Assembly: GCA_903828785.1 (NCBI GenBank)
Contig: CAIKNP010000016.1
Coordinates: 1 to 64,000, forward strand
Source of the DNA: an uncultured Actinomycetes bacterium
GTDB taxonomy: Bacteria; Actinomycetota; Acidimicrobiia; Acidimicrobiales; RAAP-2
Direction of reading: 5' to 3'
Length of the DNA stretch: 64,000 nt
Shown here: in pieces, positions 1-58,971 of the stretch
How the letters are laid out: each line of letters opens with the position of its first letter
Numbering within the stretch: position 1 is the first letter of the stretch
Translations under genes and position numbers: made by a program
Notes under the pieces: generated by a model
Database searches by the model: none
What the model saw: only the letters and a program-made list of their open reading frames with translations
Told to the model about the DNA's origin: nothing

Positions 1-1482
1 ACCGCGGCCACCACGATGACTGTGGCCAAGAAGACTTTCACCTACGCCCAGGGCAGTCAGACGCTCAGCGCCACGGTGAAGTCAAGTACGAACGCGAGCT
101 CCTTGCTCTCCGGCAGCGTCGCCTTCAGCACGGGGGGCAGCCCCTTGTGCACCGCTACTTTGACCTCCCAGACCGCCAGTTGCACTATTGGCGCCACCAC
201 CCTGGACGCGGGTGTCCATACGCTCACCGCTTCGTACAGTGGCAACAGTGCCTTCGCTCCTCATTCGGCGAGTACTTTGGCTACCGTGGGCGTTGATAGC
301 ACCACGCTCAAAGTCGCACGATCAGTGGCTTCCGTGCCTCTATCAAACTTGGCGGCGATGGCCATTACCACTTCCCTTACGGCCAAATACGGAGCGGCCC
401 CGTCGGGCAACGTGACCTTGAGCATGGACGGTACCTTGCTCTCCAACAACGCCGGCTCCTTCAGTTTTTCCTCTCTCGTACCCTCATCGGTAGCGCTGGG
501 CGTGCACACCATTACGGTTCACTTCAACGGGGATAATAACTACAAGCCCGCTTCGGCTCACACCAGCTTCAGTGTTACGGCGGCCACTTCCGGCCTGCCC
601 GTAACTAACCCATCGTTCGTGACGAATTACGACGTCAGTCATGGCAGCCTCGTGTGGTCGGAGACATTCGCCGGAGCGGCAGGCACGGCACTGAATTCTA
701 CTTACTGGACGCCGGAAATTGGTCAAGGAACTGGTGTGACGGGCGTGGCTCCTAACGTCCTTTACTGGTACTACGGCACCGGGGAAATCGAAACAAACAC
801 CGCTGACGCCGCCAACGTCAGTAGCGACGGCAGCGGCAACCTTGCGATTACCGCACGTTGCACACTGAACTGCACGAGCTCGGGTAACTGGACCAGCGCG
901 CGAGTGTCCACCGCGGGAAAGTTGAATTTTGAGTACGGGCAGATTGAGGCCAACATCAAAATGCCCGCCGGCTCATTTAACTGGCCAGCTTTTTGGATGC
1001 TCGGGCAGAATTTCTTCCCCAGCAACTCGTGGCCCAATTGTGGCGAGATTGACGTCATGGAGGGCCTCGCCGCTGAGACGTCTGATCAGTCCACCCTGCA
1101 CGCAAACTACCCAGGTGGGGGTGATTGGAACGGCGGTGGGGGGCTCACCGCTAGAGCTCCCTTAGCCAACCTGTCGTCGGCCTTTCACACCTTCGGGATG
1201 ATTTGGACGCCGACCTCGATTTCCTTCACTCTCGACGGTTTCGTTTTTGTCACTGATGTCTACAGTGCTTCGACGGGCACGGTGACGCAGACGTTCCCGA
1301 ACGGCGCCAGCAGTACCTTCACCATCGGTGGGGCAGTCTGGCCCTTCAACCAGCCGTTTTTCCTTATCCTGCAGGACGCCATTCCTGGCGGAACGACGGC
1401 CCCCAATGGCACTTCAGCGACCATGGACGTGAACTGGATCAAGTACTACAAGTACCAAGGCTTGGGTGGGACAAGCATCTAG
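1..1482 (+). CDS. Ig-like repeat / GH16 glycoside hydrolase (5' partial)
   Basis: The frame is open from base 1, so the N-terminus, including any signal peptide, lies outside the window; the ATG at 16 is probably internal. Counting from that ATG, residues about 1-92 and 95-190 are two bacterial Ig-like (Big_3-type) repeats rich in Ser/Thr/Gly. Residues about 205-488 are a GH16 beta-jelly-roll domain of the laminarinase/beta-1,3-glucanase type. The GH16 active-site motif GEIDVMEG is visible, with E344 the likely nucleophile, D346 the helper and E349 the acid/base. It is likely an exported enzyme acting on beta-glucan, but the substrate cannot be fixed. It ends in TAG and converges on the next gene. 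Confidence 0.88.
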   Translation, partial: TAATTMTVAKKTFTYAQGSQTLSATVKSSTNASSLLSGSVAFSTGGSPLCTATLTSQTASCTIGATTLDAGVHTLTASYSGNSAFAPHSASTLATVGVDSTTLKVARSVASVPLSNLAAMAITTSLTAKYGAAPSGNVTLSMDGTLLSNNAGSFSFSSLVPSSVALGVHTITVHFNGDNNYKPASAHTSFSVTAATSGLPVTNPSFVTNYDVSHGSLVWSETFAGAAGTALNSTYWTPEIGQGTGVTGVAPNVLYWYYGTGEIETNTADAANVSSDGSGNLAITARCTLNCTSSGNWTSARVSTAGKLNFEYGQIEANIKMPAGSFNWPAFWMLGQNFFPSNSWPNCGEIDVMEGLAAETSDQSTLHANYPGGGDWNGGGGLTARAPLANLSSAFHTFGMIWTPTSISFTLDGFVFVTDVYSASTGTVTQTFPNGASSTFTIGGAVWPFNQPFFLILQDAIPGGTTAPNGTSATMDVNWIKYYKYQGLGGTSI

Positions 1483-1748: not shown

Positions 1749-2243
1749 TCAGGCCCCGGGGTGAGGTATTGTCGGGGCAAAACCCCGTCTGTACACCAAA
1801 AGTGTTCGAGTGAATTCGATGATAGTCACGCCGTCTTGATTAAACCCGGTGGTGCGTACTGTTACGACGCCGACCTGGGGGCGGCTCTTGGAGTCTCGCA
1901 GGGCGATAACTTCTGACTTTGAGTAGACGGTGTCGCCTTCGAAGAGAGGGTGGGGGAGTCGAACAGCGTCCCAACCGAGGTTGGCCATCACATTTTGCGA
2001 AACGTCCGAGACGGACTGCCCCGTGACGAGAGCCAGGGTGAAGGTCGAGTTGACGAGCGGCCGTCCGAATTCGGTTTGCGCGGCGTAGTGGCGATCAAAG
2101 TGCAGAGCGGCGGTATTTTGAGTGAGGAGCGTGAACCACGTGTTGTCGGTTTCACTTATGGTCCGGCCCAGTGCGTGATGATAGATGTCGCCGATTTGAA
2201 AATCCTCAAAAAACCGTCCTCGCCAACTCTCAACCGTTCCCAT
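1749..2243 (-). CDS. MaoC-family mesaconyl/itaconyl-CoA hydratase candidate
   Basis: This 164-aa single hot-dog domain of the MaoC (R-specific enoyl-CoA hydratase) family carries the hydratase signature around residues 33-55 (DNTWFTLLTQN followed by LHFD). A single-domain MaoC next to a CitE-like lyase is the pairing known for itaconyl-CoA or mesaconyl-C4-CoA hydratases, which make citramalyl-CoA. That assignment is an inference from context. The start codon shares one base with the stop of the upstream lyase (TGATG), so the two are translationally coupled. It is last in a minus-strand operon of GntR regulator, lyase and hydratase. Confidence 0.85.
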   Translation of the reverse strand: MGTVESWRGRFFEDFQIGDIYHHALGRTISETDNTWFTLLTQNTAALHFDRHYAAQTEFGRPLVNSTFTLALVTGQSVSDVSQNVMANLGWDAVRLPHPLFEGDTVYSKSEVIALRDSKSRPQVGVVTVRTTGFNQDGVTIIEFTRTLLVYRRGFAPTIPHPGA

Positions 2244-3142
2244 CAGTTCTCTCCTTCGCCCTTGAGCTCACTTGTCGATTTCGACCACTGGAGGAGTTGG
2301 CGATAGTGGCGCACCACCGCCTCATCGACCATCCGCCCCTCGTCATCGAGGACGACACCGACGCCCTTCGTCAAGGCTTCGTCATAACGGCTGAGGAGTC
2401 GATGCGCCTCGTTCATTTCCTCAGCGCTCGGGGTGTACACCTCGTGAATGACGGGAATCTGGGCGGGGTGAATAGCGGCGCGACCAATGAACCCCTGCTC
2501 GCGTAGCCGAAGAGTTGACTGCCGGAAGGCATCGAGGTCACGAAATTCGGGAGAGACCCCTCCCAAGGGCGGCAGAATCTGGGCTGACACTGAAGCGATA
2601 AGGACTCCAGCGCGAACGTGGTCGAGGATGGACGAGGCCGCGTCGCCAGCAATTCCCAGATCGGCCGCTAGGTCCAGTTCGCCAAGTTGCAAGCGTCGCA
2701 CTCGAGGCCTCGCCGCAATGGCTGGAAGCTCTTCAACGGCTCGGGCGGTCTCAATCATGGGCATCAAAGCAATAGACCCTTCGCTACCGCGAGTCGTCTC
2801 GAGTTCATCAAGCAGGTCGCTGGCGGTGTCAATCTCGGCAGGGCTGCTGATTTTGGGCAAACAGAAGCCGCTGAGATCATCGCGGGCGAGCAGGGCGATC
2901 TCTTCGAGCCCCCGGTCACCTGGGTTAACTCGAATCCAGCGCTCAAGTCCCTGCGGTAGAGGCGTGCGCATCCATTCGAGCAGGTTCTCGAGCGCTTCGC
3001 GCTTGGCCCCGGGCGCGACACCGTCTTCGAGATCGGCGATGAGAGCATCGGCTCCTCGCTGCAGTGCCCGGTGGAGCCGTTCGCTACGGTCGGCGGGTAC
3101 GTAGAGATAACTACGCGCGAGACCAGCGCCCGGAACGTTCAT
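2243..3142 (-). CDS. HpcH/HpaI-family CoA-ester lyase (CitE-like, probable citramalyl-CoA lyase)
   Basis: The 299-aa TIM-barrel lyase has the family N-terminus RSYLYVPADRSER, the ADLEDGV segment, a Mg-binding Glu in MIETARAVEE and the ELDLAADLG segment near residue 150. The family cleaves malyl-, citramalyl- or citryl-type CoA thioesters to acetyl-CoA plus a 2-oxoacid. With the coupled MaoC hydratase and the divergent methylaspartate lyase and CoA-transferase, citramalyl-CoA to acetyl-CoA plus pyruvate is the best fit; malyl-CoA lyase is the main alternative. It overlaps the upstream GntR gene by 4 bases. Confidence 0.88.
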   Translation of the reverse strand: MNVPGAGLARSYLYVPADRSERLHRALQRGADALIADLEDGVAPGAKREALENLLEWMRTPLPQGLERWIRVNPGDRGLEEIALLARDDLSGFCLPKISSPAEIDTASDLLDELETTRGSEGSIALMPMIETARAVEELPAIAARPRVRRLQLGELDLAADLGIAGDAASSILDHVRAGVLIASVSAQILPPLGGVSPEFRDLDAFRQSTLRLREQGFIGRAAIHPAQIPVIHEVYTPSAEEMNEAHRLLSRYDEALTKGVGVVLDDEGRMVDEAVVRHYRQLLQWSKSTSELKGEGEN

Positions 3143-3807
3143 CGGGTAAACATCAACTGAACGAGTTGCCCCGATGATCGCAGGTGACTGCGCATCGCCT
3201 CCTCAGCCTTCCTTGAGTCCTGACTCTCAATTGCGGCGAACAGTGGCGCGTGTGAAAGCATGGCTTCGAGGCGGGCCGGCCGGTCCCGCCAGTACAGACG
3301 CCAAAAGCGCAGGTTATGAGCGAGCAGCAGCTCGGCCGCTTCCTGCAAGATGGGGTTCTTGATGAGGTGGACTAGGAAGCGGTGGACGGCGCAATCGGCC
3401 CGCAAAAACTGCTCGGTGTCGCCAGTGAGTCGCGCCTCGTCAGCAGCCGTAACGAGTAGTCGCAATTCGACCAAGGTCTCCGCGGTCACACGACTCGCGG
3501 CGATGTACGCAACGCCACACTCAATCGTTTCGCGGGCTTCGAACATCGCGACAATGTCGTCAAAGCTTATTGAGGTGACGATGACGCCTCGCCTCGGCAG
3601 TACGGTGATGAATCGATCGGTTACCAAACGGGCCAGCGCCTCGCGAACGGGGGTGCGACCTAGTTCTAATTCATTGGCGAGAGTCAACTCGTTCAGGAAG
3701 GCCCCCGGAGCAATCGTGAGGTCGACGATTCGTTCTCGCAATAAGTTGTAGGCGGTGTCGCTGTCACGCTGGCCGGCCACTTGCTTCTCCTGCAAACTGA
3801 CGTTCAT
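3139..3807 (-). CDS. GntR/FadR-family transcriptional regulator (FCD domain)
   Basis: A 222-aa regulator. The winged helix is at about residues 20-85, with the recognition segment LANELELGRTPVREALARL and the wing VLPRRGVIV. An all-helical FCD ligand-binding domain follows at about residues 90-215 (FEARETIECGVAYIAA; SHAPLFAAIESQDSRKAEEAMRSHL). FCD regulators usually sense small carboxylates. It is first in the minus-strand operon with the lyase and hydratase and is divergent from the methylaspartate-lyase operon, so it probably controls both. An AGAGG ribosome-binding site precedes the ATG. Confidence 0.9.
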   Translation of the reverse strand: MNVSLQEKQVAGQRDSDTAYNLLRERIVDLTIAPGAFLNELTLANELELGRTPVREALARLVTDRFITVLPRRGVIVTSISFDDIVAMFEARETIECGVAYIAASRVTAETLVELRLLVTAADEARLTGDTEQFLRADCAVHRFLVHLIKNPILQEAAELLLAHNLRFWRLYWRDRPARLEAMLSHAPLFAAIESQDSRKAEEAMRSHLRSSGQLVQLMFTR

Positions 3808-3860
3808 GTCATTCGCCTCTTCGCGCTTAGGGCCTACGAAACATCCTTAACGGGGTAATC

Positions 3861-3885
3861 CAACTACTCATTGCGAGGGTAGTTG
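3861..3885. promoter_or_regulatory. Inverted repeat, candidate GntR operator
   Basis: CAACTAC-N11-GTAGTTG is a perfect 7-bp-arm inverted repeat in the 210-bp region between the divergent GntR gene and the cysteine-hydrolase operon. Its place and symmetry suit an operator for the adjacent regulator. The binding itself is an inference. Confidence 0.45.
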
Positions 3886-4017
3886 CATTGTCCTTCAACG
3901 TGAAGTATCTTACCAATCAGTTCTGAAATATCACATACTCTCTTGGCTATTGCTGGTGCATCTAGGGTCAGTGGCACGAGTGACGAGAGCTGTGGTCACC
4001 CTGTCTAAAGAGGCCCC

Positions 4018-4707
4018 ATGATTAAAGTTTGTGGCAAAAATGTACTGACCGACCTTGACGAGTTGGTGGCACCGTCGCACACGGCTCTCATCGTGATCGA
4101 CATGCAGTTCGACTTCATTGACCCTCGCGGTCTCTTCGGTCAATTGGGGGTAGACCTGAGCATGTACGACGAGTCGCGTCCGCGACTGCGCCAACTGCTC
4201 GAAGCGGCTCGAGATCATGGGGTACTGGTGATTCACTTGCAAAACACCCAGTTGGCTAATCACATGAGTGACTCACCGGCGCAGCACCGCTTCAATCTCC
4301 GTATGCATGGCGGTTTCCGCCAGGGGGACCAGCCCCTGACCTACACGGTGCCCGGCACTCCCGGTCACGAGTTTCTCCCCGAATTTCAACCACTGGCCCA
4401 CGAGTTGGTCGTGCGCAAATACCGATCCAGTGGTTTCTGGGGAACCAACCTACCCATGCTCTTACGCTCGAACCAGATCGAGACCGTAGTGATGACTGGC
4501 TGCACTACTGAGGGTTGTGTCGAATCCACCGCCCGTGATGCGATGTTCAATGACTTCTACGTGGTCATTGCGGAAGATTGCGTGGCGAGCGACGATCGCT
4601 CACAGCACGACGCCTCGCTCCACTTGATGCGCCACCGCTTTGATTTGGCCACTGGCGCGCAAATACAAAATGTCTGGGAGGCTAGTGCGCCTGCCGGGGA
4701 GGAATAA
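4018..4707 (+). CDS. Isochorismatase-like cysteine hydrolase (amidase/half-amidase)
   Basis: This 229-aa member of the cysteine-hydrolase family (nicotinamidase, maleamate amidase, N-carbamoylsarcosine amidase) shows the full catalytic triad: D28 in VIDMQFDF, K134 in VVRKYRSSGF and C167 in TGCTTEGCVEST. The family hydrolyses amide or carbamoyl C-N bonds. It is first in the plus-strand operon. A PuuE-like cyclic-imide/allantoin hydrolase closes the same operon, so a role as half-amide or carbamoyl amidase is plausible but unproven. AAGAGG lies four bases before the ATG. Confidence 0.87.
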   Translation: MIKVCGKNVLTDLDELVAPSHTALIVIDMQFDFIDPRGLFGQLGVDLSMYDESRPRLRQLLEAARDHGVLVIHLQNTQLANHMSDSPAQHRFNLRMHGGFRQGDQPLTYTVPGTPGHEFLPEFQPLAHELVVRKYRSSGFWGTNLPMLLRSNQIETVVMTGCTTEGCVESTARDAMFNDFYVVIAEDCVASDDRSQHDASLHLMRHRFDLATGAQIQNVWEASAPAGEE

Positions 4708-4711
4708 CAAC

Positions 4712-5461
4712 ATGGGAAAACTCGAAGGAAAGATTGCCGTAGTCACCGGAGCGGGCTCGGGAATAGGTCAGGGAATTGCCATCGCTTTCGCTCGGGAGGG
4801 CGCCAGTGTGATCGTGGTGGACGTCTGTGAACAAGCAAAAGCGCAGGTGACCCTCGACGCGGTGGCCGAATTCGGAGGGGCCAGTCACTTCATCAGTGCT
4901 GACGTGAGTGATGCGGCAGCCGTTAGCGCCATGGCCGACGAGGCACTCGCACGTTTCGGTCGCGTCGACGTGCTGGTCAACAACGCCGGGATTTTTACTG
5001 AGCATCTCCTCGAAGAGATGAGCGTTGAGCAGTGGGACCACGTAATCAACGTCAATTTGCGCAGCGTGTTTCTCTGCACCAGGGCCCTCATTGGCCAGAT
5101 GCTCGATCGGGGCGAAGGACGCATCATCAATATCGCTTCGCAACTCGCCTACATCGGAGGTACTTCGGCGGTGCACTACACCGCCAGCAAGGCCGGCGTC
5201 ATTGGTCTGACCAAGGCGCTCGCGCGTGAAGTATCGCATCGTGGCGTATTGGTGAACGCCATCGCGCCGGGCCCTATCATCACACCTTTACTCGAGGACG
5301 AGTCCGAAGAGTGGCGTTCGGCAAAATTGGCAGAATTGCCGATTCGCCGATTTGGTCGTGTTGACGAAATCACTCCCACCGCCGTTTTGTTGGCGTCGGC
5401 GGACGGGTCCTACTACGTTGGTGCCACCCTGGGGCCAAACGGTGGCGACGTGATGGTATGA
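4712..5461 (+). CDS. SDR-family NAD(P)-dependent oxidoreductase
   Basis: A classical 249-aa short-chain dehydrogenase/reductase. The cofactor motif TGAGSGIGQG is near residues 12-21, NNAG near residue 90, the catalytic Ser in NIASQLAY, and Tyr/Lys in YTASK near residues 155-159. The frame is open further upstream, but ATG 4712 is preferred because GGGGAGGAA precedes it and the previous gene stops at 4707. Its stop overlaps the next start (ATGA). The substrate is unknown; it sits between the cysteine hydrolase and methylaspartate lyase. Confidence 0.88.
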   Translation: MGKLEGKIAVVTGAGSGIGQGIAIAFAREGASVIVVDVCEQAKAQVTLDAVAEFGGASHFISADVSDAAAVSAMADEALARFGRVDVLVNNAGIFTEHLLEEMSVEQWDHVINVNLRSVFLCTRALIGQMLDRGEGRIINIASQLAYIGGTSAVHYTASKAGVIGLTKALAREVSHRGVLVNAIAPGPIITPLLEDESEEWRSAKLAELPIRRFGRVDEITPTAVLLASADGSYYVGATLGPNGGDVMV

Positions 5462-6726
5462 GAATTCTCGACGTGGTGTGCACGCCCGTCGATGCCGGCT
5501 TCTTTCGTGACGACCAAAACGCCATTCGAAGTGGTCTCGGCCATAACGGTTTTCTCTACGAAGGTACTCCCGTTACGCCGGGATTTCGCGAGATTCGTGA
5601 GGCCGGTGTTGCGGTTTCCGTCATGCTGATTCTTGACGATGGTCAGGTGGCCTTAGGGGACTGCGCTGAAGTTCAGTACGCGGGTGCCGGCGGACGCTCA
5701 GTGCCCTTGTCGTGTGCGCAACTGGTGGAGCAACTGAACTCTCACGTGCTACCGCGCTTGCGCGGCCGCTCCTTCGAAGGCTTTCGCGAGGCGGCCGAAG
5801 AAATAGATTCCCTCGAGCTGGCTGGAGAACGTTTGTCTACGCCGCTACGCTACGGCGTTACGCAAGCGCTGTTACACGCTGCGGCCCTGACCAATGGTGA
5901 AACCATGGCCGAAGTAGTGCAGCGCGAATACGGCGTGCGCTCCCCGATTGATCTCGTGGCTATTTTTTCTCAGTGTGGTGACAATCGTTACGACAACGTT
6001 GACAAGATGATCCTCAAACGGGTTGACGCTTTGCCTCACGGTCTTATTAACGACGTGGAGAGCAAATTAGGCCGTACTGGTGAGATATTGCTCGAGTACG
6101 TGGGCTGGTTGCGACGGCGTATTCTCGAGATTCGCACTAGCCCCGACTACGAGCCGCGTTTGCACTTTGACACTTACGGCACCATTGGAATGGCCTTCGA
6201 GGGCGATCTCGATCGGATAGTGGACTACCTCGCCGAGGTGGCGCGGGTGGCGGCTCCCTTTGCGGTGTGGGTGGAGCACCCTATTGACGCCGGAAGTCGT
6301 GACGAACAGGTCGCGGTCTACGTTCGCCTGCGGGCGCTTTTGCGGGAGCGTGGCGTGCCAGTGGCCCTGGTGGTTGACGAGTGGTGCAACACGCTCGAGG
6401 ACATCGATGCGTTCACCTCGGCACAGGCGGCGGACGTGATTCACGTTAAGACGCCTGACCTCGGAGGAGTGAATAACACTATTGAGGCCCTGTTGATGGT
6501 TCGTTCTCGTGGCCTGAAGGCCTACAGCGGCGGAACCTGTAACGAAACCGAGCAATCGGCGCGCGTCACCACCCACATTGCCATGGCCTGCGGAGCGGAT
6601 CAGGTATTGGCTAAGCCCGGCATGGGAGTGGACGAGGGCATCATGATTGTGCGAAACGAGATGGCCCGCACCCGTGACCTCGTGCGTTGGCGAGCTGAGC
6701 AATCTGGTCGGCAAGGACTCTCGTGA
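5458..6726 (+). CDS. mal: 3-methylaspartate ammonia-lyase
   Basis: A 422-aa enolase-superfamily enzyme that deaminates (2S,3S)-3-methylaspartate to mesaconate. The numbering matches the characterised clostridial and Citrobacter enzymes residue for residue: metal ligands D238, E273 and D307; catalytic K331 (VKTPDLGG) and H194; substrate-pocket Q73, Q172, T360, C361 and L384. One pocket residue differs: position 329, Gln in those enzymes as I recall, is His here. No glutamate mutase lies in the window, so the methylaspartate source is unknown. It overlaps its neighbours by 4 bases on each side. Confidence 0.95.
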   Translation: MRILDVVCTPVDAGFFRDDQNAIRSGLGHNGFLYEGTPVTPGFREIREAGVAVSVMLILDDGQVALGDCAEVQYAGAGGRSVPLSCAQLVEQLNSHVLPRLRGRSFEGFREAAEEIDSLELAGERLSTPLRYGVTQALLHAAALTNGETMAEVVQREYGVRSPIDLVAIFSQCGDNRYDNVDKMILKRVDALPHGLINDVESKLGRTGEILLEYVGWLRRRILEIRTSPDYEPRLHFDTYGTIGMAFEGDLDRIVDYLAEVARVAAPFAVWVEHPIDAGSRDEQVAVYVRLRALLRERGVPVALVVDEWCNTLEDIDAFTSAQAADVIHVKTPDLGGVNNTIEALLMVRSRGLKAYSGGTCNETEQSARVTTHIAMACGADQVLAKPGMGVDEGIMIVRNEMARTRDLVRWRAEQSGRQGLS

Positions 6727-7967
6727 AACCGCTGGCTGACGTTCGCATCCTGGCCATTGAACAATACGGTGCTGGCCCCTTTGGCTCCGTTCAGCTCGCC
6801 GACCTTGGGGCGGACGTCATTAAAATTGAAGACCCCAGTGTCGGTGGTGACATTGGTCGTTACGTCAGCCCCTTGCAATCGGGGGAAGACAGCATCTTTT
6901 ACGAAACCTTCAATCGCAACAAGCGCAGCCTCAGCCTTGATTTGACGACGAGCTCAGGGCGCGCCGTCTTCGAAGACCTCGTACGGGTGAGCGATATCGT
7001 CTACTCCAACTTGCGCGGTGACGTTCCCGAACGGCTCGGCATTCGCTTTGAGGACCTGCGCCACCTCAATCCCCTCATCGTGTGCTGTTCACTCAGTGGC
7101 TACGGCATGACCGGACCACGCCGTGCCGATCCCGGCTACGACTACGTGGTTCAGGGACTCGCTGGTTGGATGGACCTCACGGGTGAGCCTGACGGTCCAC
7201 CCACCAAATCAGGATTGTCGGTGGTCGATTTTTCGGGGGGCCTGGTCGCCGCCATTTCCATGCTGGCCGCCTTGCACGCCGCACGTCGCGACGGTGTGGG
7301 CAGTGATTGCGACGTCAGTCTCTTCGAAACAGCCATGTCGATGCTCACCTATCCGGCCGCCTGGGCCCTCAATAGCGACTTTGAACCACGACGCACGCAC
7401 CATTCAGCCCACCCTTCCATCGTTCCCTTTCAAGCCTTCGAGTCGAAGGACGGGTGGATCGTCGTGGCCTGTCCCAAAGAAAAGTTTTGGCAACGGCTCG
7501 TTGAGGCCATGGGGCTTCACGAACTCGCCACTGAACCCCGCTTTCAGGGTTTTGCCAACCGTCACCGATACGCGGCGGACGTTCTCGCCATACTGGAACC
7601 AGCCTTTGCCAAACGCAGCACCGCCGAGTGGCTCGACCTGCTCAGCGCGGCGCAGGTGCCTTGCGGGCCGGTCAATTCCGTGGCGCAGGCGCTCGCGGAT
7701 GTCCAGTCCACGGCCCGCGGCGTTGTCGTAAGTACCGAGCATCCCCACTTTGGTCACGTGCGCCAAGTGGCCAGTGCCGTTCGAGTGGGCAGTGAACCCA
7801 GCGAGCATCGTCGAGCACCACTGCGTCATGAGGACGCCGCCGAGGTACTGGGTACGCTGCTCGGGTACTCTCCTGAACAGCAAGTCCATCTAGCGACCGA
7901 GGGCGCCTTCGGTGCCCATTTTTCGTCGAATCGTCAAAAAGAAGCGGAAGGAAATAATCATGTTTGA
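6723..7967 (+). CDS. CaiB/BaiF class III CoA-transferase
   Basis: A 414-aa family III CoA-transferase. The N-terminal Rossmann-like part (YGAGPFGSVQLADLGADVIKIE) and the catalytic region with D140 in GYDYVVQGLAGWM are visible, followed by the TKSGLSVVDFSGGL segment. Starting at GTG, it overlaps the methylaspartate-lyase stop (GTGA). This position makes it the likely enzyme that activates mesaconate to mesaconyl-CoA, with succinyl- or acetyl-CoA as donor; the donor and regiochemistry cannot be read from the sequence. Confidence 0.9.
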   Translation: MKPLADVRILAIEQYGAGPFGSVQLADLGADVIKIEDPSVGGDIGRYVSPLQSGEDSIFYETFNRNKRSLSLDLTTSSGRAVFEDLVRVSDIVYSNLRGDVPERLGIRFEDLRHLNPLIVCCSLSGYGMTGPRRADPGYDYVVQGLAGWMDLTGEPDGPPTKSGLSVVDFSGGLVAAISMLAALHAARRDGVGSDCDVSLFETAMSMLTYPAAWALNSDFEPRRTHHSAHPSIVPFQAFESKDGWIVVACPKEKFWQRLVEAMGLHELATEPRFQGFANRHRYAADVLAILEPAFAKRSTAEWLDLLSAAQVPCGPVNSVAQALADVQSTARGVVVSTEHPHFGHVRQVASAVRVGSEPSEHRRAPLRHEDAAEVLGTLLGYSPEQQVHLATEGAFGAHFSSNRQKEAEGNNHV

Positions 7968-8733
7968 ACTAAAGAATCAGGTGGCGGTCATCACGGGGGC
8001 GGCGTCGGGTATCGGCGCGGCGACGGCTCGCGTCTTCGCGGCCGCCGGAGCCGACGTGGCCCTCGCGTGGTATCCCTCGGACCCGCACGACATCGAGCTC
8101 GTGCGGCGTGACGTCGAGGCCAGTGGTCGACGTTGCATCGTCGAAGCGGTGGACGTAGGGGTGAGTGCCGACGTTGATCGGCTGATTGCACGGACCGTCG
8201 CCGAGCTCGGAGCGGTACATATCGCCGTCGCCAACGCCGGCATTGCTCGCCGGGTGCCCCTGGAGAAGCATGATGATGACGCTTGGAATCGGGTCGTGAA
8301 TGTCAATCTGCAGGGGGCCTACCGCGTCTTTCGAGCCTGCATTCCTCACATGCGCGAGCAGGGTTTCGGTCGATTGCTGGCTACATCATCAATCGCGGGA
8401 ACCGTTTCTGCCTGGCCCCAGCATCTGGACTACGTCAGTTCGAAGGCCGGATTGGTTGGTCTGATGCAGACGCTCGCCGTCGAGTTTGGTCCCTTTGGCA
8501 TTACGTCGAACGCGGTAGCTCCCGGCACTATCCGCACACCACAGGCCCTGGACCCCGTTAACTCACTCGGTCCTGATGGTATTGCCGAGCTCGCCGACAA
8601 AGTACCCGTTGGTCGAGTGGGTGACCCCGAAGACATCGCTTACGTCTTTGCCTTCCTGGCTAGTCAAGAAGCCTCCTACGTCAACGGTCAGGTAATCGTT
8701 GTTGATGGAGCCCGCCACCTAGCCGGTCTGTAA
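7960..8733 (+). CDS. SDR-family oxidoreductase
   Basis: A second classical SDR in the operon, 257 aa. TGAASGIGAA binds the cofactor, NAGIA follows, and the catalytic Ser, Tyr and Lys lie in TSSIAG and YVSSK (about residue 157). ATG 7960 is chosen because GGAAGGAA precedes it; this overlaps the CoA-transferase by 8 bases. It resembles 3-oxoacyl-ACP reductase/FabG-type enzymes, as most SDRs do, and no substrate can be assigned. Its presence with the other SDR suggests an alcohol/ketone step upstream of the dicarboxylate. Confidence 0.88.
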   Translation: MFELKNQVAVITGAASGIGAATARVFAAAGADVALAWYPSDPHDIELVRRDVEASGRRCIVEAVDVGVSADVDRLIARTVAELGAVHIAVANAGIARRVPLEKHDDDAWNRVVNVNLQGAYRVFRACIPHMREQGFGRLLATSSIAGTVSAWPQHLDYVSSKAGLVGLMQTLAVEFGPFGITSNAVAPGTIRTPQALDPVNSLGPDGIAELADKVPVGRVGDPEDIAYVFAFLASQEASYVNGQVIVVDGARHLAGL

Positions 8734-8760
8734 GCGTCGCCTTGTCAAGAAAGGATAAGT

Positions 8761-9708
8761 ATGAGTATGAATGAACAGTTCTTTCGGCGTAGCGATAGCA
8801 CTGAGGGTGTCTCGGGTCCTCCACGAGAGCTCGTGGGCTACGGCGAGTTTCCGCCCCGCGTTCGCTGGGCGAACGGGGCCAAGGTGGCGATTCAAATCGT
8901 CGTCAATTACGAAGAGGGGTCGGAGAAAACCTTCGCGATGGGCGACGGCGTTAACGACGGCATGTACGAACTGCCTTTTGCGATTGAGGGTATTCGCGAC
9001 CTAGCGGTGGAGTCGATGTACGAATACGGTTCACGGGCTGGTATTTGGCGGCTCTTTCGCGTCTTCGACAGTGCCAATATTCCCGTGACGATTTTCGGAT
9101 CGGCCGTGGCCCTCGAACGCAACCCCGAAGTGGCCGCCAAAATTGTGCGTCGCGGTGACGAAGTGGTCGGTCACGGGTACCGCTGGTCGAATCACTTCGA
9201 GATGACCCGTGACGAAGAGCGCGAAGCCATTCGACGCGCGATCGACTCGATAGAAGGCAGTACCGGTGTCCGGCCGCTGGGCTGGTACTGCCGAGAGATG
9301 AGTCCCAACACCCGTGAACTCGTCGTTGAAGAGGGCGGATTCTTCTACGACTCCGACTCGTACAACGAGGATTTGCCCTACTGGACAAGCATCCTGGGCC
9401 GGTCGCACTTGGTGGTTCCCTACACCCTGGTGGTCAACGACGTGCGCTACATCGCTGGTACCGGCTTTGGAAGTCCCGAAGACTTCTTCGCCACCGCGAA
9501 GGCGACCATTGATCGACTCCGAAATGACGGGGACGACCTCGGACGGATGATGTCCATAGGTCTGCACCCGCGCATCACCGGTAACCCGGCACGCGCCGAC
9601 GCGCTGGCGCGATTCATTGCCTACGCTCAACAGTTTGATGACGTCGTCTTCATGCGGCGAATTGACCTCGCGCGCACCTTCGCCGATCAGGTGCCTCGAC
9701 CCGCCTAA
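8761..9708 (+). CDS. Polysaccharide-deacetylase-family hydrolase, PuuE/cyclic-imide-hydrolase type
   Basis: A 315-aa NodB-fold protein of the PuuE (allantoinase)/cyclic imide hydrolase branch rather than a sugar deacetylase. It has the branch's NYEEGSE segment at about residues 49-55, GHGYRWSNH with H138 and H145, and GWYCREMSPNTRELV. Members open cyclic ureides or imides. Paired with the cysteine hydrolase that opens this operon, it could convert an imide through a half-amide to a dicarboxylate; this is inference. AAAGGAT precedes the ATG. Confidence 0.83.
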   Translation: MSMNEQFFRRSDSTEGVSGPPRELVGYGEFPPRVRWANGAKVAIQIVVNYEEGSEKTFAMGDGVNDGMYELPFAIEGIRDLAVESMYEYGSRAGIWRLFRVFDSANIPVTIFGSAVALERNPEVAAKIVRRGDEVVGHGYRWSNHFEMTRDEEREAIRRAIDSIEGSTGVRPLGWYCREMSPNTRELVVEEGGFFYDSDSYNEDLPYWTSILGRSHLVVPYTLVVNDVRYIAGTGFGSPEDFFATAKATIDRLRNDGDDLGRMMSIGLHPRITGNPARADALARFIAYAQQFDDVVFMRRIDLARTFADQVPRPA

Positions 9709-9767: not shown

Positions 9768-9863
9768 ATGAACGTCGTTGCGAGTTCGTACCAGGAAAGG
9801 GCGTCGAGGTGTCGAAAGTCGCGCTCGCGAGGCTCGCCTGAAGAGGGCCGCCGTGCCCTGTGA
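9768..9863 (+). CDS. Possible 31-aa leader peptide upstream of glycerate kinase
   Basis: A short reading frame with a strong GAAGGAG ribosome-binding site before ATG 9768. The product is Arg/Ser-rich (ending SPEEGRRAL), and its TGA at 9861 overlaps the proposed GTG start (9853) of the glycerate kinase. It could couple translation of that gene. No homology is recognised, and chance occurrence is quite possible. Confidence 0.25.
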   Translation: MNVVASSYQERASRCRKSRSRGSPEEGRRAL

Positions 9864-10926
9864 ATCCTTGCTTCGAGTGTCGAAGACTGTCGGCAAGGGG
9901 CGACACCCCCGAGCCCTCGTCGCCATGGATAAATTTCGTGGAACGGCGAGTGCGTCCGACCTCGCCGCGACGGTAGCGGCGTCACTGGAGCGTCGAGGCT
10001 GGGAAGTGAAAGTGCAGGCCATTTCTGACGGAGGCGAGGGTTTTCGAGCCTGTTTTGAAGGAAGGGTCAGCTACGTGGACGCCTCCGATGCCTACGGAAC
10101 TATCCGCGCCGTCCCCATCACCTGGCTGCGAGAGGGCAGTGAACGTATCGCCGTCATCGAGGTGGCCGAGATAGTGGGACGCCGCATAGGTAACCCCTCG
10201 AGCGAAGAGGCTCTGCGCGCCTCCAGCGCGGGCCTGGGGCAGGTCATTCTCGCGGCGCACGCCGCGGGCGCCACCGGCGTTCTCGTGGGCCTGGGGGGAT
10301 CGGCCACGTCCGACGGCGGCGAGGCGTGCTACGAACTACTGAGGGATGGGGCCGCCCTGCCCATCACGGCTGCCACTGACGTGATGCTTCCCTTTTTCGG
10401 CGCGATGCACTTCGCCGCACAGAAGGGAATCCAGGTCAAGGACGAGCCGGTCCTCGAGGCCCGCTTGGCGATGGTGGCCGAGCGATACCGAAATGAATGC
10501 GGCGTTGACGTTGCGGCCATTGACGGCGCCGGCGCTGCGGGTGGGATTGGTGGCGCTCTGGTGGCCCGTGGTGCCACACTGGCCCGAGGTTTCGACGTGG
10601 TTGCTCGTCACCTGAATCTGGCCAGTGGTGTTCATTGGGCCGATCTCGTTATCACGGGTGAAGGACGTCTGGATCAGGGCAGCCTGGAGGGAAAAGTGGT
10701 CGACGGCGTCGGTGCGCTGCTCGGGGCAACCCCGGGTCTCGTGCTCTGCGGGGCGAGTGAGGCATCGGCCCGCGCCACCCTCCTCCAGCGCTATCCCTCC
10801 TACGAAGTACTGAGTCTGAGCGAGGAGTGTGGCGAGCGCGCCCTGCGTGATCCGCTGGGGTGTATCGCCGATCTGCTCGCCATTAGCAACAATGACCGCG
10901 AGGAGCTAGGGCCTGGACATCACTGA
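9853..10926 (+). CDS. Glycerate kinase (GK2/GarK family)
   Basis: About 357 aa from GTG 9853; the frame is open back to ATG 9778 and GTG 9877 is also possible. GK2 hallmarks are clear: DKFRGTASASDLA near the start, SDGGEGF, GLGGSATSDGG, and DLVITGEGRLDQGSLEGK near the C-terminus. The family phosphorylates D-glycerate to 2- or 3-phosphoglycerate and so feeds glycolysis and gluconeogenesis. AGAGG lies before 9853. It converges on, and overlaps by 21 bases, the FAD oxidoreductase. Confidence 0.9.
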   Translation: MPCESLLRVSKTVGKGRHPRALVAMDKFRGTASASDLAATVAASLERRGWEVKVQAISDGGEGFRACFEGRVSYVDASDAYGTIRAVPITWLREGSERIAVIEVAEIVGRRIGNPSSEEALRASSAGLGQVILAAHAAGATGVLVGLGGSATSDGGEACYELLRDGAALPITAATDVMLPFFGAMHFAAQKGIQVKDEPVLEARLAMVAERYRNECGVDVAAIDGAGAAGGIGGALVARGATLARGFDVVARHLNLASGVHWADLVITGEGRLDQGSLEGKVVDGVGALLGATPGLVLCGASEASARATLLQRYPSYEVLSLSEECGERALRDPLGCIADLLAISNNDREELGPGHH

Positions 10927-12435
10927 AGTGTCACCCCGCAGGTCCGCTAAGACTTCTCGAGCGGCGTTGCGTCCGGGGCGACCGGACACCGAGCCACCGG
11001 GGTGCGATGTCGAACCGGTGAGGTACAGACCATCAATCTCGGTACGAACGTCGCGCCACCCGGGAATAACGGAGCCGTCGGGGAGATGGAACTCGCCCCC
11101 GTGACAGGAACCACTGATGTTGGCCAAATTGTGCGCGGCGATGCTGGTAGGCGACTCGGCCCGCATGGCCAGAATGTTGTCGTCGTCAAGACCCTTGACG
11201 TAGGGACGGGCGAAGGAGAGAAGGTGGTTGGCGTAGTCATTGGTTTGCTGCTCGGTCCAAGCCTGTCCATCGCGCAGCATGGGTGCAATAGTGAGGAATT
11301 TAAACACCGCTCCGGGGGCCCGGGTGGGATCAACCACGGTGGAATCAACCATCAAGAGCCAGGGACTTTCGGCCGAGAGCTCTCCGGCCAGGGCCGCGTT
11401 GACTTGCGCCCGCAGTCCTTCGGGTGATCCCAAACCGGCGGCCACGGCGCGCGTCATACCAGCACTCGTGTTGTAGGTCGGGTGCTCCTTGAGGGCGAAG
11501 TGAACGGCGAAGACCGACAGTCCGGGGTGCCACTGGGCCGCCGCTTCGTCCAAACCGGGGGTTTCGCACTCGATGCTCTTGGCCAAGGTCAGCAGATGGC
11601 TACCCGCCACGACCGCTCGCCGTGCTCCAAACTCTCGACCGTCCGCACAGCGAACGCCAACGCAGCGTCCGTCGGCAACCAGGTATTCGTCCACCCAAGC
11701 CCCCGTAATCACGCGCCCCCCGTGATCTTCGAGGTGGGCGACGAGGGCCTTGGGGAGCGCGTCGGAACCGCCGACGGGCGTGGTCCAACCAAATTTCAGT
11801 CGTCCCGCGAGTATGGCCGCGGGGAGCGCCCCCGTTCCCGGACGTTCTGGAGGCTGAATAGTGGCAAAGGCCATCCACATAACGGCGCGACGAATGAGAG
11901 GGTGTTCGAAGGATGTCATCACGACTTCCCAGGCACTACGTTGGCGCAGAGTTTCGTAGCGCGAAGACCACTCGTCGTCGGGGTAGGGGAGTCCGGCTTG
12001 AAAGTAGGCGTGCGCGTTGCGCAGCCCCTGGTCCCATTCCGTCATCATTGAGCGAAGGGCGTCGCCGTCGTGCATCGAATACTGGTCGAAGTTGCGAGCG
12101 GTGGCCTCAAGGTCGGGGTGCATGACCAGCGCCTCACCATCGAGGACGGGGAGCACGACGGCGGGGTCAGTGATGAGGTAGGTGAGGCCGTACTTGGCGA
12201 TCAGGCCCAGCTCGTCCTTGGCCAGCAAGGGATTGGACTGAATGACCACGTGAGCGCTCGAGCACGAATCGTGGCGCCAACCGGGCAGGGTCAACTCCTC
12301 AGTTGCGGTGTTGCCACCCACAAAATCACGGCCCTCCACCACGGTGACGCTTAAACCGGCCTGCGCGAGATAGGCCGCGCAGGTCAACGAATTATGACCA
12401 CCGCCGACAACAACCACATCACTGACTTGTTCCAT
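10906..12435 (-). CDS. FAD/NAD(P)-dependent oxidoreductase, phytoene-desaturase/PYROXD2-like
   Basis: A 509-aa flavoprotein. The dinucleotide motif VVVGGGHNSLTCAAYLA is at residues 7-23, followed by VVEGRDFVGGNTATEE. The CrtI-type C-terminal FAD motif LYLTGSTSHPGGSVSGRPGRNAA is near residue 480. The family includes carotenoid desaturases, retinol saturase and PYROXD2; the substrate is unknown. ATG 12435 is preferred over an upstream in-frame start because GGGGG precedes it. Confidence 0.85.
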   Translation of the reverse strand: MEQVSDVVVVGGGHNSLTCAAYLAQAGLSVTVVEGRDFVGGNTATEELTLPGWRHDSCSSAHVVIQSNPLLAKDELGLIAKYGLTYLITDPAVVLPVLDGEALVMHPDLEATARNFDQYSMHDGDALRSMMTEWDQGLRNAHAYFQAGLPYPDDEWSSRYETLRQRSAWEVVMTSFEHPLIRRAVMWMAFATIQPPERPGTGALPAAILAGRLKFGWTTPVGGSDALPKALVAHLEDHGGRVITGAWVDEYLVADGRCVGVRCADGREFGARRAVVAGSHLLTLAKSIECETPGLDEAAAQWHPGLSVFAVHFALKEHPTYNTSAGMTRAVAAGLGSPEGLRAQVNAALAGELSAESPWLLMVDSTVVDPTRAPGAVFKFLTIAPMLRDGQAWTEQQTNDYANHLLSFARPYVKGLDDDNILAMRAESPTSIAAHNLANISGSCHGGEFHLPDGSVIPGWRDVRTEIDGLYLTGSTSHPGGSVSGRPGRNAAREVLADLRGDTSVMSRP

Positions 12436-12498
12436 AGTTCCCCCTACGAAGAGGATAGAAGCCACACTTCGTGGCCGGCGATGAAAAGTTTTTGCCGC

Positions 12499-54242: not shown

Positions 54243-54275
54243 CGTTGCGAAAACCTATGGGGGATGTTCGCAACG
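54243..54275. promoter_or_regulatory. Inverted repeat upstream of the importer operon
   Basis: CGTTGCGAA-N15-TTCGCAACG has perfect 9-bp arms and ends 24 bases before the ATG of the substrate-binding protein. TACGAT at 54214-54219 could be the -10 element, which would put the repeat in the 5' leader. It is a candidate operator for the TetR regulator or a leader hairpin. Confidence 0.5.
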
Positions 54276-54299
54276 TCAACTAGTAGTGGGGGAATAAAG

Positions 54300-55550
54300 A
54301 TGAAGAAGAACGCAATGGCCTTGCGATCACTCGGCATCATTGGAGTGGCCGCAGCCACTCTGTTGACCATGTCGACCGTTAGTGGAGCAGCACCGAAGGC
54401 ACGCGGAACCGCCAGTGTCATCAAAATTGGTATTTCGCTGTCCTTGTCTGGTGACTTCTCGGCCGACGGCATCGCGTACAAGCAGGGCTACCAGCTCTGG
54501 GCAAAAGACGTCAACGCGGCGGGTGGTCTTATGGGGCACCCCGTCCAGTTAGTAATCCTGTCCGACGCCTCGGATCCCACTCAAGTGGTCACTAATTACA
54601 AGACCTTGATTTCAACCGACCACGTGAACTTGGTGTTCGGACCTTTCTCTAGTCTCTTGACCTTGCCATCGGCTGAAGCAGTTTCTCGCTACGGCTACGC
54701 CATGGTCGAAGGTGCTGGTGGGGCCCCATCGGTTTTTAGTGCCAACTTGAAGAACGTCTTTGACGTGACACTGCCCGTGGCCTTTGACTTGCAGCCCTTT
54801 GCGAAGTGGGTGAAGGCCTTGCCCTCAGCAACACGTCCCAAGTCAATTTTTTACGTGACGTCAAACGACCCTTTCACCCAGCCCGTTGTCGACACCGCTC
54901 GCTCCATGATCGGTAGTTCGATTAAGAGTGTCGGTCACTTGGTCTTCCCATCGGAAGCGACGGACTGGAAGTCCATCGCGGACCAGGTCGCGACTGCCAA
55001 GCCCGACGCCGTCGTTCTGGGCTCGGTTGACGTACCCACCGTTTCCGCCTTCATGCTGGCCTTTCAGCAAATGCACTACACGCCGAAGATTTTCGTGTGC
55101 ACGGCCGGTCCCGACCAGGGCAGGGCCTTCACTTCCGCGGTGGGCGCCAAGAACGCGGACGGCATGATGGTCCCCAACTCGTGGTACGGCGGGTCAGTTA
55201 ACCCGATGTCCAAGCGGATGGTTTCGGAGTACGTTACGCAGTATGGTGGCACCGCTTCTGGTGTGAACGCCGACATTGCCGAGGCTTACTCGGTCGGTCA
55301 GACGGTGGCCGCCGCGGTGAAGGCCACGGGTGGCACCGACAACGCCAAGATCATGACCTACCTGCACTCGGGCGTGACCATCGCCACGGTACAGGGCGCG
55401 GTCAAGTTCAATAGCCTGGGTGAGAATCTGTCCCAGACCGCGTACACCTTCCAGTGGCAAAAGGCCGGCACCGCATTCGTGCAGGTCAACCCCGTTGGTG
55501 ACAAGGCGTCGGTGGCTATTGAATACCCGAAGAACGCGTGGGGTAAGTAA
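54300..55550 (+). CDS. livK: ABC importer substrate-binding protein (Leu/Ile/Val or amide type)
   Basis: A 416-aa periplasmic-binding-fold type I protein. The signal peptide is at about 1-28, ending near SGAAP, and the family start IKIGISLSLSGDFSADG follows at about residue 40. It belongs to the HAAT family that binds branched amino acids, amides, urea or aromatic acids; the ligand cannot be read. ATG 54300 follows GTGGGGGA. It heads the operon with four further importer genes and four catabolic genes. Confidence 0.92.
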   Translation: MKKNAMALRSLGIIGVAAATLLTMSTVSGAAPKARGTASVIKIGISLSLSGDFSADGIAYKQGYQLWAKDVNAAGGLMGHPVQLVILSDASDPTQVVTNYKTLISTDHVNLVFGPFSSLLTLPSAEAVSRYGYAMVEGAGGAPSVFSANLKNVFDVTLPVAFDLQPFAKWVKALPSATRPKSIFYVTSNDPFTQPVVDTARSMIGSSIKSVGHLVFPSEATDWKSIADQVATAKPDAVVLGSVDVPTVSAFMLAFQQMHYTPKIFVCTAGPDQGRAFTSAVGAKNADGMMVPNSWYGGSVNPMSKRMVSEYVTQYGGTASGVNADIAEAYSVGQTVAAAVKATGGTDNAKIMTYLHSGVTIATVQGAVKFNSLGENLSQTAYTFQWQKAGTAFVQVNPVGDKASVAIEYPKNAWGK

Positions 55551-55553
55551 CTC

Positions 55554-56444
55554 TTGCACGCATCTGGCGCAGCACTCGTGGGTGCCCTGACTGACGGGGT
55601 ACTCACGGGTTCGGTCTACGCACTGATGGCAACGGGGCTAACCCTGGTCTTTGGTGTTATGGACATAATCAACGTGGCGCAGGGAATCTTCGTGATTCTC
55701 GGGGCCTACCTCAGCTACACCTTGCAGGTGCACTTTGGTATTGACCTTTTCCTCGGTCTCTTGATCACGATTCCCACCATGTTTTTGGTGGGAATCGTGA
55801 TCGAGCGGGCCTTTTTGGCCCGACTGAAGGGACCAGAAAAGACCGCAATGTCAATTCTGGTGACCTACGCCATTTCCTTGGTCATCGAGGGATTGCTGAA
55901 TGAGATTTTCTCTGTCAACAACGTCCAACTGAGTGCGTCATACGTCAACGAGTCCTTCAAACTGTTCGGCATCTACCTGCCCTACATCTACCTTGACGGC
56001 TTCCTTCTCGCGATAGGGCTCCTAGGGGCCCTCTACTTCATGTTGTACCGAACGCGCTTCGGAGCATCCATACGAGCGTCATTAGCCGATCAATCAGCCG
56101 CGGCGCTCGTGGGAATTGACGTAAAGAAGGTATCGACCATCTGCTTCGGCATAGGCATTGCCGTCACGGCCGCGGGTGGGATGATTTTCGGAGCAACGAA
56201 TTCATTCAACGCATCAACCAGCTACGACCTCATTTCCCGTCTGCTGACAATCATCGTCCTTGGCGGGATGGGTTCTTTGGCGGGAGCGCTCGTGGCGGGC
56301 ATTCTCATGGTCACCCTGGAAGACCTCGTAGGAGTTTTGTGGTCACCGGTGTGGTCGACGATGTCCTTCTTTGTTGTGCTCATTATCGTGCTGTCGCTGC
56401 GTCCGCAAGGCCTCTTCGGCAAGCAGTCTGCGCGCGTTGCCTAA
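55554..56444 (+). CDS. livH: ABC importer permease, LivH type
   Basis: A 296-aa permease with eight or so TM segments and the LivH features GLTLVFGVMDIINVAQG near residue 27 and GGMGSLAGALVAG near 245. It starts at TTG 55554, three bases after livK. Its stop and the next ATG share a base (TAATG). Confidence 0.93.
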   Translation: MHASGAALVGALTDGVLTGSVYALMATGLTLVFGVMDIINVAQGIFVILGAYLSYTLQVHFGIDLFLGLLITIPTMFLVGIVIERAFLARLKGPEKTAMSILVTYAISLVIEGLLNEIFSVNNVQLSASYVNESFKLFGIYLPYIYLDGFLLAIGLLGALYFMLYRTRFGASIRASLADQSAAALVGIDVKKVSTICFGIGIAVTAAGGMIFGATNSFNASTSYDLISRLLTIIVLGGMGSLAGALVAGILMVTLEDLVGVLWSPVWSTMSFFVVLIIVLSLRPQGLFGKQSARVA

Positions 56445-58970: not shown

Positions 58971-58971
58971 G

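Follow-up and report, generated by a model that had tools for sequence, protein, structure and literature searches.

The window analyzed here is a 64,000-nucleotide stretch (positions 1 to 64,000 of contig CAIKNP010000016.1) from an uncultured member of the Acidimicrobiales, and it contains a cluster of nine genes and one operator-like site, organized in two divergent arms, that includes a gene for a methylaspartate ammonia-lyase (MAL) family protein. The stronger finding is that this protein belongs to a MAL subfamily with an altered active site, whose genomes, as far as searched and one distant exception aside, have no over-cut-off match to the glutamate mutase protein GlmE. With moderate confidence, the whole is read as an inducible catabolic cluster in two arms, coding for a predicted coenzyme A (CoA)-dependent C5 route that would be fed by hydrolysis of a bound 3-methylaspartate-like compound. 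Neither the cluster nor the MAL subfamily was found described in the open-licence literature searched, with subscription journals outside the search.

The window MAL scores 507.5 bits against TIGR01502 (cut-off, 286). The earlier note credited it with all catalytic residues, and this holds for nine of them, namely the base K331, H194, the Mg ligands D238, E273, and D307, and Q73, Q172, T360, and C361, but not for position 329, where Gln is replaced by His; G274 is also His. Relative to the crystallized MALs 1kcz and 1kko, the substitutions appear as EHP for EGP and IHVK for VQIK, and residue 274, which is Gly in the classical type, adjoins the Mg ligand E273. One study describes an enolate stabilized by Mg, Q329, and H194 and gives, for its reference structure, a distance of 3.08 Å between the Q329 amide nitrogen and the C4 carboxylate (PMC7241714).

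Among 95 sequences (the window and 94 loci), residues 274/329 are H/H in 38, Q/H in 2, G/Q in 52, and S/Q in 3, such that position 329 is His in the window MAL and the other 39 sequences of this H-clade, and Gln in 52/52 G/Q sequences. The related-locus search retained the best 80 of 542 confirmed loci, and the counts describe the nearest relatives rather than all MALs; four duplicates were dropped before loci were counted (L071 of L065, L074 of L063, L084 of L059, and L091 of L064). In a tree of 69 of the 95 sequences (26 of the 52 G/Q), built by a short search with columns 274 and 329 removed and with long branches flagged for L067, L114, and L064, all 40 H329 sequences lie on one side of a single branch (Shimodaira-Hasegawa-like approximate likelihood ratio test [SH-aLRT], 100; length, 0.52), with one Q/H change. 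Only positions 274, 306, 329, 330, and 348 separate the 40 H329 from the 52 G/Q sequences at a fixation of at least 85%, and the first four are in or beside the active site, with 306 adjoining D307 and 330 adjoining K331; 274 and 306 may thus shape the MAL pocket. The distribution of the trait is rare and patchy: a MAL over the protein family cut-off is present in 9/172 genomes of the window's taxonomic family and in 4/396 genomes of a phylum sample, in which only the window's genome has an H-clade MAL and the other three have glutamate mutase.

The MAL types also differ in their association with glutamate mutase. PF06368 (GlmE) was sought in 60 genomes, 39 with H-clade and 21 with G274/Q329 MALs, and an over-cut-off match is present in 1/39 of the former (G579, a Nonomuraea, with a distant 291-bit match) versus 20/21 of the latter, where best matches score 714 to 778 bits and the sole exception is a Cytobacillus (G596); in three of the H-clade genomes, matches of 20 to 24.5 bits fall below the threshold. 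At the locus level, GlmE lies near MAL in 50/52 G/Q loci versus 0/37 H/H, 0/2 Q/H, and 0/3 S/Q loci. The absence of glutamate mutase reported previously for the window therefore extends to the whole genome (G000; 1.56 Mb, estimated 96.5% complete), in which the profile search returned zero PF06368 candidates. Conventional degradation of glutamate by the methylaspartate pathway, with the mutase replaced or missed through assembly gaps, would account for a MAL so far above its profile cut-off, and a genome 96.5% complete leaves room for such a gap, but the 1/39 versus 20/21 genome count and the 0/37 versus 50/52 locus count make it highly improbable, and the two over-cut-off B12-binding domains of G000 are in large open frames of 1208 and 1115 amino acids (aa); a third, sub-threshold match is in a frame of 474 aa. 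Glutamate as the source of the MAL substrate is thus disfavored, and the suggestion that the substrate is external is supported both by the lack of a mutase and by transporter genes beside the cluster in relatives.

The three S/Q loci (L154, L156, and L157, from Mesorhizobium and Sinorhizobium plasmids, with MAL at 14001) also have no GlmE in the stretches read. Their MAL sits with a CaiB CoA-transferase, a CoA lyase, and a fumarase, and they share aminotransferase, succinate-semialdehyde-type dehydrogenase, and Lrp genes. In L154 the MAL is among ectoine genes (hydrolase doeA and Ehu transporter ehuACD), which hints that it acts on a substituted ectoine or aspartate, and no ectoine-labelled gene is present within the stretches read of L156 and L157. 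Recruitment of MAL away from glutamate may therefore have occurred more than once, as judged from these loci rather than from whole rhizobial genomes.

Profile matches confirm the MAL, class III CoA-transferase, GntR regulator, CitE-like lyase, and MaoC protein at the places and in the divergent arms previously given to them, and add four genes, for an amidase, two short-chain dehydrogenases/reductases (SDRs), and a PuuE-like hydrolase, all of which recur with MAL in relatives (Table 1). The genes are tightly packed, with five of the seven adjacent pairs inside the arms overlapping by 1 to 8 bases (MaoC/CitE, 1; CitE/GntR, 4; SDR1/MAL, 4; MAL/CoA-transferase, 4; CoA-transferase/SDR2, 8) and the other two spaced by 4 and 27 bases.

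Table 1. Features of the divergent MAL cluster, in window coordinates
Feature	Position	Strand	Remarks
MaoC-type hydratase	1749..2243	-	164 aa, single domain; closest profile RipB/Ich (itaconyl-/mesaconyl-C4-CoA hydratase)
CitE-like C-C lyase	2243..3142	-	Closest profile RipC/Ccl (citramalyl-CoA lyase)
GntR/FCD regulator	3139..3807	-	PF07729 and PF00392 over cut-off
Operator-like imperfect palindrome CTGAAATATCAC	3923..3934	.	Within 210-bp divergent intergenic region 3808-4017
Isochorismatase-family amidase (Isoch)	4018..4707	+	Nearest BiuH/RutB; PF00857, 146 bits
SDR dehydrogenase 1	4712..5461	+	PF00106 over cut-off; S...Y...K motif; start set at internal ATG
Methylaspartate ammonia-lyase (MAL) family protein, H274/H329 subfamily	5458..6726	+	TIGR01502, 507.5 bits
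Class III CoA-transferase (CaiB/BaiF)	6723..7967	+	PF02515, 398 bits; Asp169 present
SDR dehydrogenase 2	7960..8733	+	PF13561 over cut-off; SDR motif; start set at internal ATG
PuuE-like ring-opening amidohydrolase	8761..9708	+	TIGR03212, 339 bits; not allantoinase by score

The arrangement is not due to chance, as orthologues keep it in several genera. Window proteins were compared by tblastn with 92 loci, in which the relatives' genes were called by our own script, with some errors; many of the relatives' genomes are incomplete metagenome-assembled genomes (MAGs) with fallible record titles, such that L059 and L084 are titled Acidobacteria yet lie in a genome of the window's genus, and L078 is titled Gammaproteobacteria. 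Three types of context are distinguished. Type A has the window arrangement (L060, L063, L065, L066, L075, and L083, with L073 likewise but without MaoC and CitE) and is found in Cryobacterium, in Acidimicrobiales relatives of the window's genus, and in Nocardioides, where CitE and MaoC are missing; in L063 these two are matched only partly, and L072 and L078 each have a portion of the cluster. Type B (L061, L062, L064, L079, and L108) has a permease, amidase, SDR, glutamine-synthetase-like ligase, and amidohydrolase_2, with an EgtC-like amidotransferase in four of the five. In type C, found in Planotetraspora, Nonomuraea, Streptosporangium, Microbispora, Nanopelagicaceae, and others, MAL is surrounded by a dipeptide-type ATP-binding cassette (ABC) transporter, asparaginase_2, M55, M20, and M19 peptidases, and a fusion of a ketopantoate-reductase-like (ApbA) domain to an amidase, not all of them in every locus; domains were identified on L085 and L100 proteins and followed elsewhere by homology, and the fusion (L085:292-2433 and relatives) has homologues in 15/37 H/H loci. 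L063 and L086 combine modules of different types.

Hydrolases thus accompany MAL in all three contexts, whether PuuE-like (A), amidohydrolase_2 with gamma-glutamyl enzymes (B), or asparaginase_2/M55/M19/M20 (C). One genome of the set (G115) holds two H-clade MALs, one in a type A locus (L060) and one in a type C-like locus (L059), and as these are in different cluster types they may serve different substrates. In the window's own genome, a type C-like module lies apart from MAL on contig 1 at 97.6 to 101.1 kb (L173:9590-13081), with SDR, M55, and asparaginase_2 proteins 68 to 74% identical to the type C ones, so a peptide side may exist at a second locus. The same segment also has a 2-hydroxyacid dehydrogenase gene, and genes for an Ala-racemase/D-serine-dehydratase-domain protein and a class V aminotransferase are nearby.

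The CoA-transferase, MaoC protein, and CitE-like lyase can each be placed in a family, although they are distant from the characterized equivalogs. The transferase is a class III member by its PF02515 score (398 bits) and its catalytic Asp169, with 235 bits against the succinyl-CoA:mesaconate CoA-transferase profile NF041294 (cut-off, 700). It lies directly behind MAL in 23 of the 35 H/H loci that offer 1.2 kb or more of downstream sequence versus 0/46 G/Q loci, as counted at 50% or greater identity to the window protein, which leaves out less similar CaiB-type transferases behind MAL in six plasmid loci. Such transferases occur in each of the six plasmid loci examined, and three of those loci are G/Q; CoA activation behind MAL is therefore not unique to the H-clade. 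Variants include a single-strand GntR-MAL-CoA-transferase-CitE-MaoC order in an Amycolatopsis MAG (L080), MAL-CoA-transferase-MaoC in Planotetraspora, Nonomuraea, and Streptosporangium, and an AMP-binding acyl-CoA ligase in place of the transferase after MAL in L139. The MaoC protein, which has an orthologue in 12/37 H/H loci, is over the cut-offs of PF19315 (mesaconyl-CoA hydratase) and PF01575, has PDB relatives 8hgn and 4e3e, and scores 204 bits against RipB/Ich NF038241, 60% of the cut-off of 340. The CitE-like lyase (PF03328, 99.7 bits; PDB relatives 9nzb and 8khl) scores 161 bits against RipC/Ccl NF038242, 43% of the cut-off of 375.

According to two papers, Ich-type itaconyl-CoA hydratase doubles as a mesaconyl-C4-CoA hydratase (PMC12290011), and citramalyl-CoA, formed when mesaconyl-C4-CoA is hydrated, is split into acetyl-CoA and pyruvate (PMC5592240). 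The profiles point to enzymes of this Ich/Ccl type, acting on mesaconyl-C4-CoA and citramalyl-CoA. A haloarchaeal-type route would fit the class III CoA-transferase and the PF19315 match of the MaoC protein, but it is unlikely, as the hydratase has a single domain rather than the two of the Mch type and scores only 77 bits against haloarchaeal NF041625 (cut-off, 560) versus 204 against RipB/Ich, and the lyase scores 87 bits against haloarchaeal malyl-CoA lyase versus 161 against RipC; it was set aside on these scores. Because the same arrangement recurs in relatives, the order MAL, CoA-transferase, hydratase, lyase is a fair inference.

The rightward arm also codes for a candidate upstream side. 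The amidase scores 120 bits against the biuret amidohydrolase profile BiuH NF050097 (cut-off, 370), has orthologues in 15/37 H/H and 2/2 Q/H loci, and in a search of the 396 phylum genomes at E ≤ 1e-50 matched only its own genome; for both SDRs, the PDB matches include many FabG-like entries, which form the majority for SDR1. The PuuE-like protein scores 339 bits against the allantoinase profile TIGR03212 (cut-off, 424.6), and the three type A proteins scored (window, L065, and L083) span 335 to 339 bits, as compared with 500 and 569 bits for two of three aligned PuuE proteins encoded beside urate genes. Type A proteins are 42 to 48% identical to the urate-linked ones (47 to 48% to all three for the window protein) and form a separate group, outside of which lies the L139 protein, with 51 to 57% identity to urate-linked PuuE and 45% to the window's.

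That the amidohydrolase genes serve purine or allantoin use and lie beside MAL by chance is hard to sustain. PuuE is the nearest named family, the L139 protein leans toward urate-linked PuuE, and a glycerate kinase gene follows directly at 9778, but the allantoinase score is below cut-off, the alignment sets the window protein apart at 47 to 48% identity, linkage to MAL is kept across genera, and none of the 92 related loci gave a glycerate kinase match at E ≤ 1e-10; allantoin use was rejected on these grounds. The glycerate kinase gene and the convergent CrtO/CrtI-like flavin adenine dinucleotide (FAD) oxidoreductase gene after it occupy 9778-12465, and the latter also has no match in the 92 loci.

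An analogy, and no more than that, is the Aspergillus nidulans HxnW-HxnM-HxnN system of nicotinate breakdown, which also combines a dehydrogenase, an HP0310/PuuE-related cyclic imidase, and then an amidase; as described in PMC9304392, HxnM, of a related family, acts between a dehydrogenase and an amidase to open the cyclic imide 3-hydroxypiperidine-2,6-dione. It differs in having another amidase family and no MAL. An Isoch-family amidase (38% identity) is also encoded on a Variovorax plasmid, where its neighbors are two genes of the polysaccharide-deacetylase family and an amino-acid ABC transporter but no MAL; the two deacetylase-family proteins are just 27 to 28% identical to the window's PuuE-like protein. 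The simplest reading of the window genes is dehydrogenation, ring opening, and amide hydrolysis to yield a 3-substituted aspartate.

The intergenic region between the arms contains a candidate operator. In three of six relatives examined (L060, L063, and L065), a perfect CTGATATATCAG lies in the interval that separates GntR from the start of the rightward arm; the half-site CTGATATA is common to L075 and L083, and L073 has neither CTGATATATCAG nor CTGATATA. The window site at 3923-3934 is a copy of CTGATATATCAG with two mismatches and is the sole match at two or fewer mismatches in 64 kb, where 0.48 chance matches are expected per whole window, or ~0.002 per 210 bp if evenly spread. The site supports probable joint control of both arms; a scan for promoters and terminators found no more than in shuffled sequences. 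Transporter genes lie between GntR and amidase in relatives, with an amino-acid permease in L060, L063, L065, and L066 (in L066 by homology) and a branched-chain-type ABC transporter in L083; genes that fall into the same clusters are also present in L073 and L075. Elsewhere in the window, at 54264-61136, branched-chain-type ABC transporter genes are followed by an M24 peptidase gene. This system, at 54 to 59 kb, was considered as a replacement transporter and rejected, because its binding protein does not match those of Cryobacterium or Nocardioides and its remaining subunits are 29 to 41% identical to those of Cryobacterium.

From the gene families, their order and conservation, the active-site change, and the lack of a detectable glutamate mutase, we predict the following reactions, substrate, and regulation. 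The PuuE-like ring hydrolase, amidase, and two dehydrogenases, in an order that is itself conjectural, would hydrolyze and oxidize a compound taken up from outside (an amide, cyclic imide, or ureide), yielding a 3-substituted aspartate, of which 3-methylaspartate is the simplest candidate. The H329 MAL would then eliminate ammonia to give mesaconate, the class III CoA-transferase would form mesaconyl-C4-CoA, the MaoC protein would hydrate this to citramalyl-CoA, and the CitE-like lyase would release acetyl-CoA and pyruvate, with GntR governing both arms from the shared intergenic region. The earlier claim of a complete C5 path is supported insofar as conserved linkage indicates that MAL, CoA-transferase, MaoC, and CitE-like lyase belong together; the path as then drawn was not complete, as it omitted the four-gene amidohydrolase/dehydrogenase side. 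Conceivable substrates include microcystin-type methyl-isoaspartate, peptidoglycan peptides, methylated ectoines, and pyrimidine derivatives.

Several points weigh against this scheme. The hydratase, lyase, CoA-transferase, amidase, and PuuE-like protein are all below their nearest NCBIfam cut-offs, so the true substrate of any of them may be a different one. Among the members of the type A loci, CitE is the least conserved (42 to 58% identity, over an alignment of just 115 aa in L063), and 7/37 H/H loci have an orthologue of it; in 12/35 H/H loci the CoA-transferase is not directly behind MAL. Three Dormibacterota loci have amidase, MAL, and CoA-transferase without SDR or PuuE-like genes, and L080 has no amidase, showing that the four-gene upstream side is not always present; moreover, the two SDRs are without clear use in any step. 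The relatives' transporter is absent from the window's 210 bp, the best-matching permease at any other place in the genome reaches only 34% identity, and the window ABC system is not an orthologue of the Cryobacterium one.

Finally, given the Q329H change, MAL may have a substrate other than 3-methylaspartate. The subfamily might act on some other 3-substituted or differently configured aspartate (e.g., D- or hydroxyalkyl-aspartate), with the downstream enzymes handling a matching acid other than mesaconate. This is the less probable reading, but it draws on the location of positions 274, 306, 329, and 330 in or next to the Mg/C4-carboxylate site, on the role in enolate stabilization given to Q329 in PMC7241714, on the distance of the downstream enzymes from mesaconate/itaconate equivalogs, and on the D-aminopeptidase and asparaginase/isoaspartyl-peptidase families of type C. 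Against it, the pocket residues L384, F170, and Y356 are retained in most H-clade members, and for both MaoC and CitE the top-scoring profiles are the C5 itaconate/mesaconate ones. More broadly, and tentatively, the H274/H329 lyases may form a functionally separate subfamily, mostly actinobacterial, that deaminates 3-substituted aspartates hydrolyzed from cyclic amides and isoaspartyl or D-peptides.

The predicted 3-methylaspartate route resembles several known systems without matching any. With the clostridial and enterobacterial methylaspartate pathway it shares a MAL-family lyase, C5 branched intermediates, and, as stated in PMC4682846, a GntR regulator in some clusters, but no glutamate mutase was found, the cluster is without class I fumarase (mesaconase) or a citramalate lyase complex, the MAL is H274/H329, and CoA esters rather than free citramalate would be the intermediates. 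Like the pseudomonad itaconate/methylsuccinate cluster Ict-Ich-Ccl, it groups a CoA-transferase, MaoC hydratase, and CitE-like lyase, although it would be fed by MAL and its hydratase and lyase are below the RipB and RipC cut-offs. In the haloarchaeal methylaspartate cycle (Mct, Mch, and Mcl), MAL is likewise followed by a class III CoA-transferase and MaoC-type hydratase, whereas the window has a single-domain RipB-like hydratase, a RipC-like lyase, and no glutamate mutase. Proteobacterial glutamate mutase-MAL-CaiB-CoA lyase-fumarase clusters on Ensifer, Gemmobacter, and Rhizobium plasmids also have a CaiB-type CoA-transferase and CoA ester lyase directly behind MAL, but they include glutamate mutase and fumarase and a G274/Q329 MAL.

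If the H274/H329 lyases do deaminate 3-substituted aspartates freed from bound forms, they would open a B12-independent way into C5 acid catabolism, serving a class of bound amino acids of soils and fresh waters. With scores over the MAL profile cut-off, H-clade proteins would receive a glutamate-fermentation annotation, yet 38 of the 39 genomes searched have no over-cut-off GlmE, and their lyases have the active-site change in common. Clusters are present in named cultured strains of Cryobacterium, Nocardioides, Planotetraspora, Nonomuraea, and Streptosporangium, so both the substrate and the His/Gln switch are open to testing, and knowing the substrate would reveal which bound C5 amino acids occur widely enough for these clusters to be retained by bacteria, including some whose genomes are 0.8 to 1.6 Mb. 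Upstream of the cluster, window positions 16-1482 code for Ig-like domains fused to a glycoside hydrolase family 16 domain.

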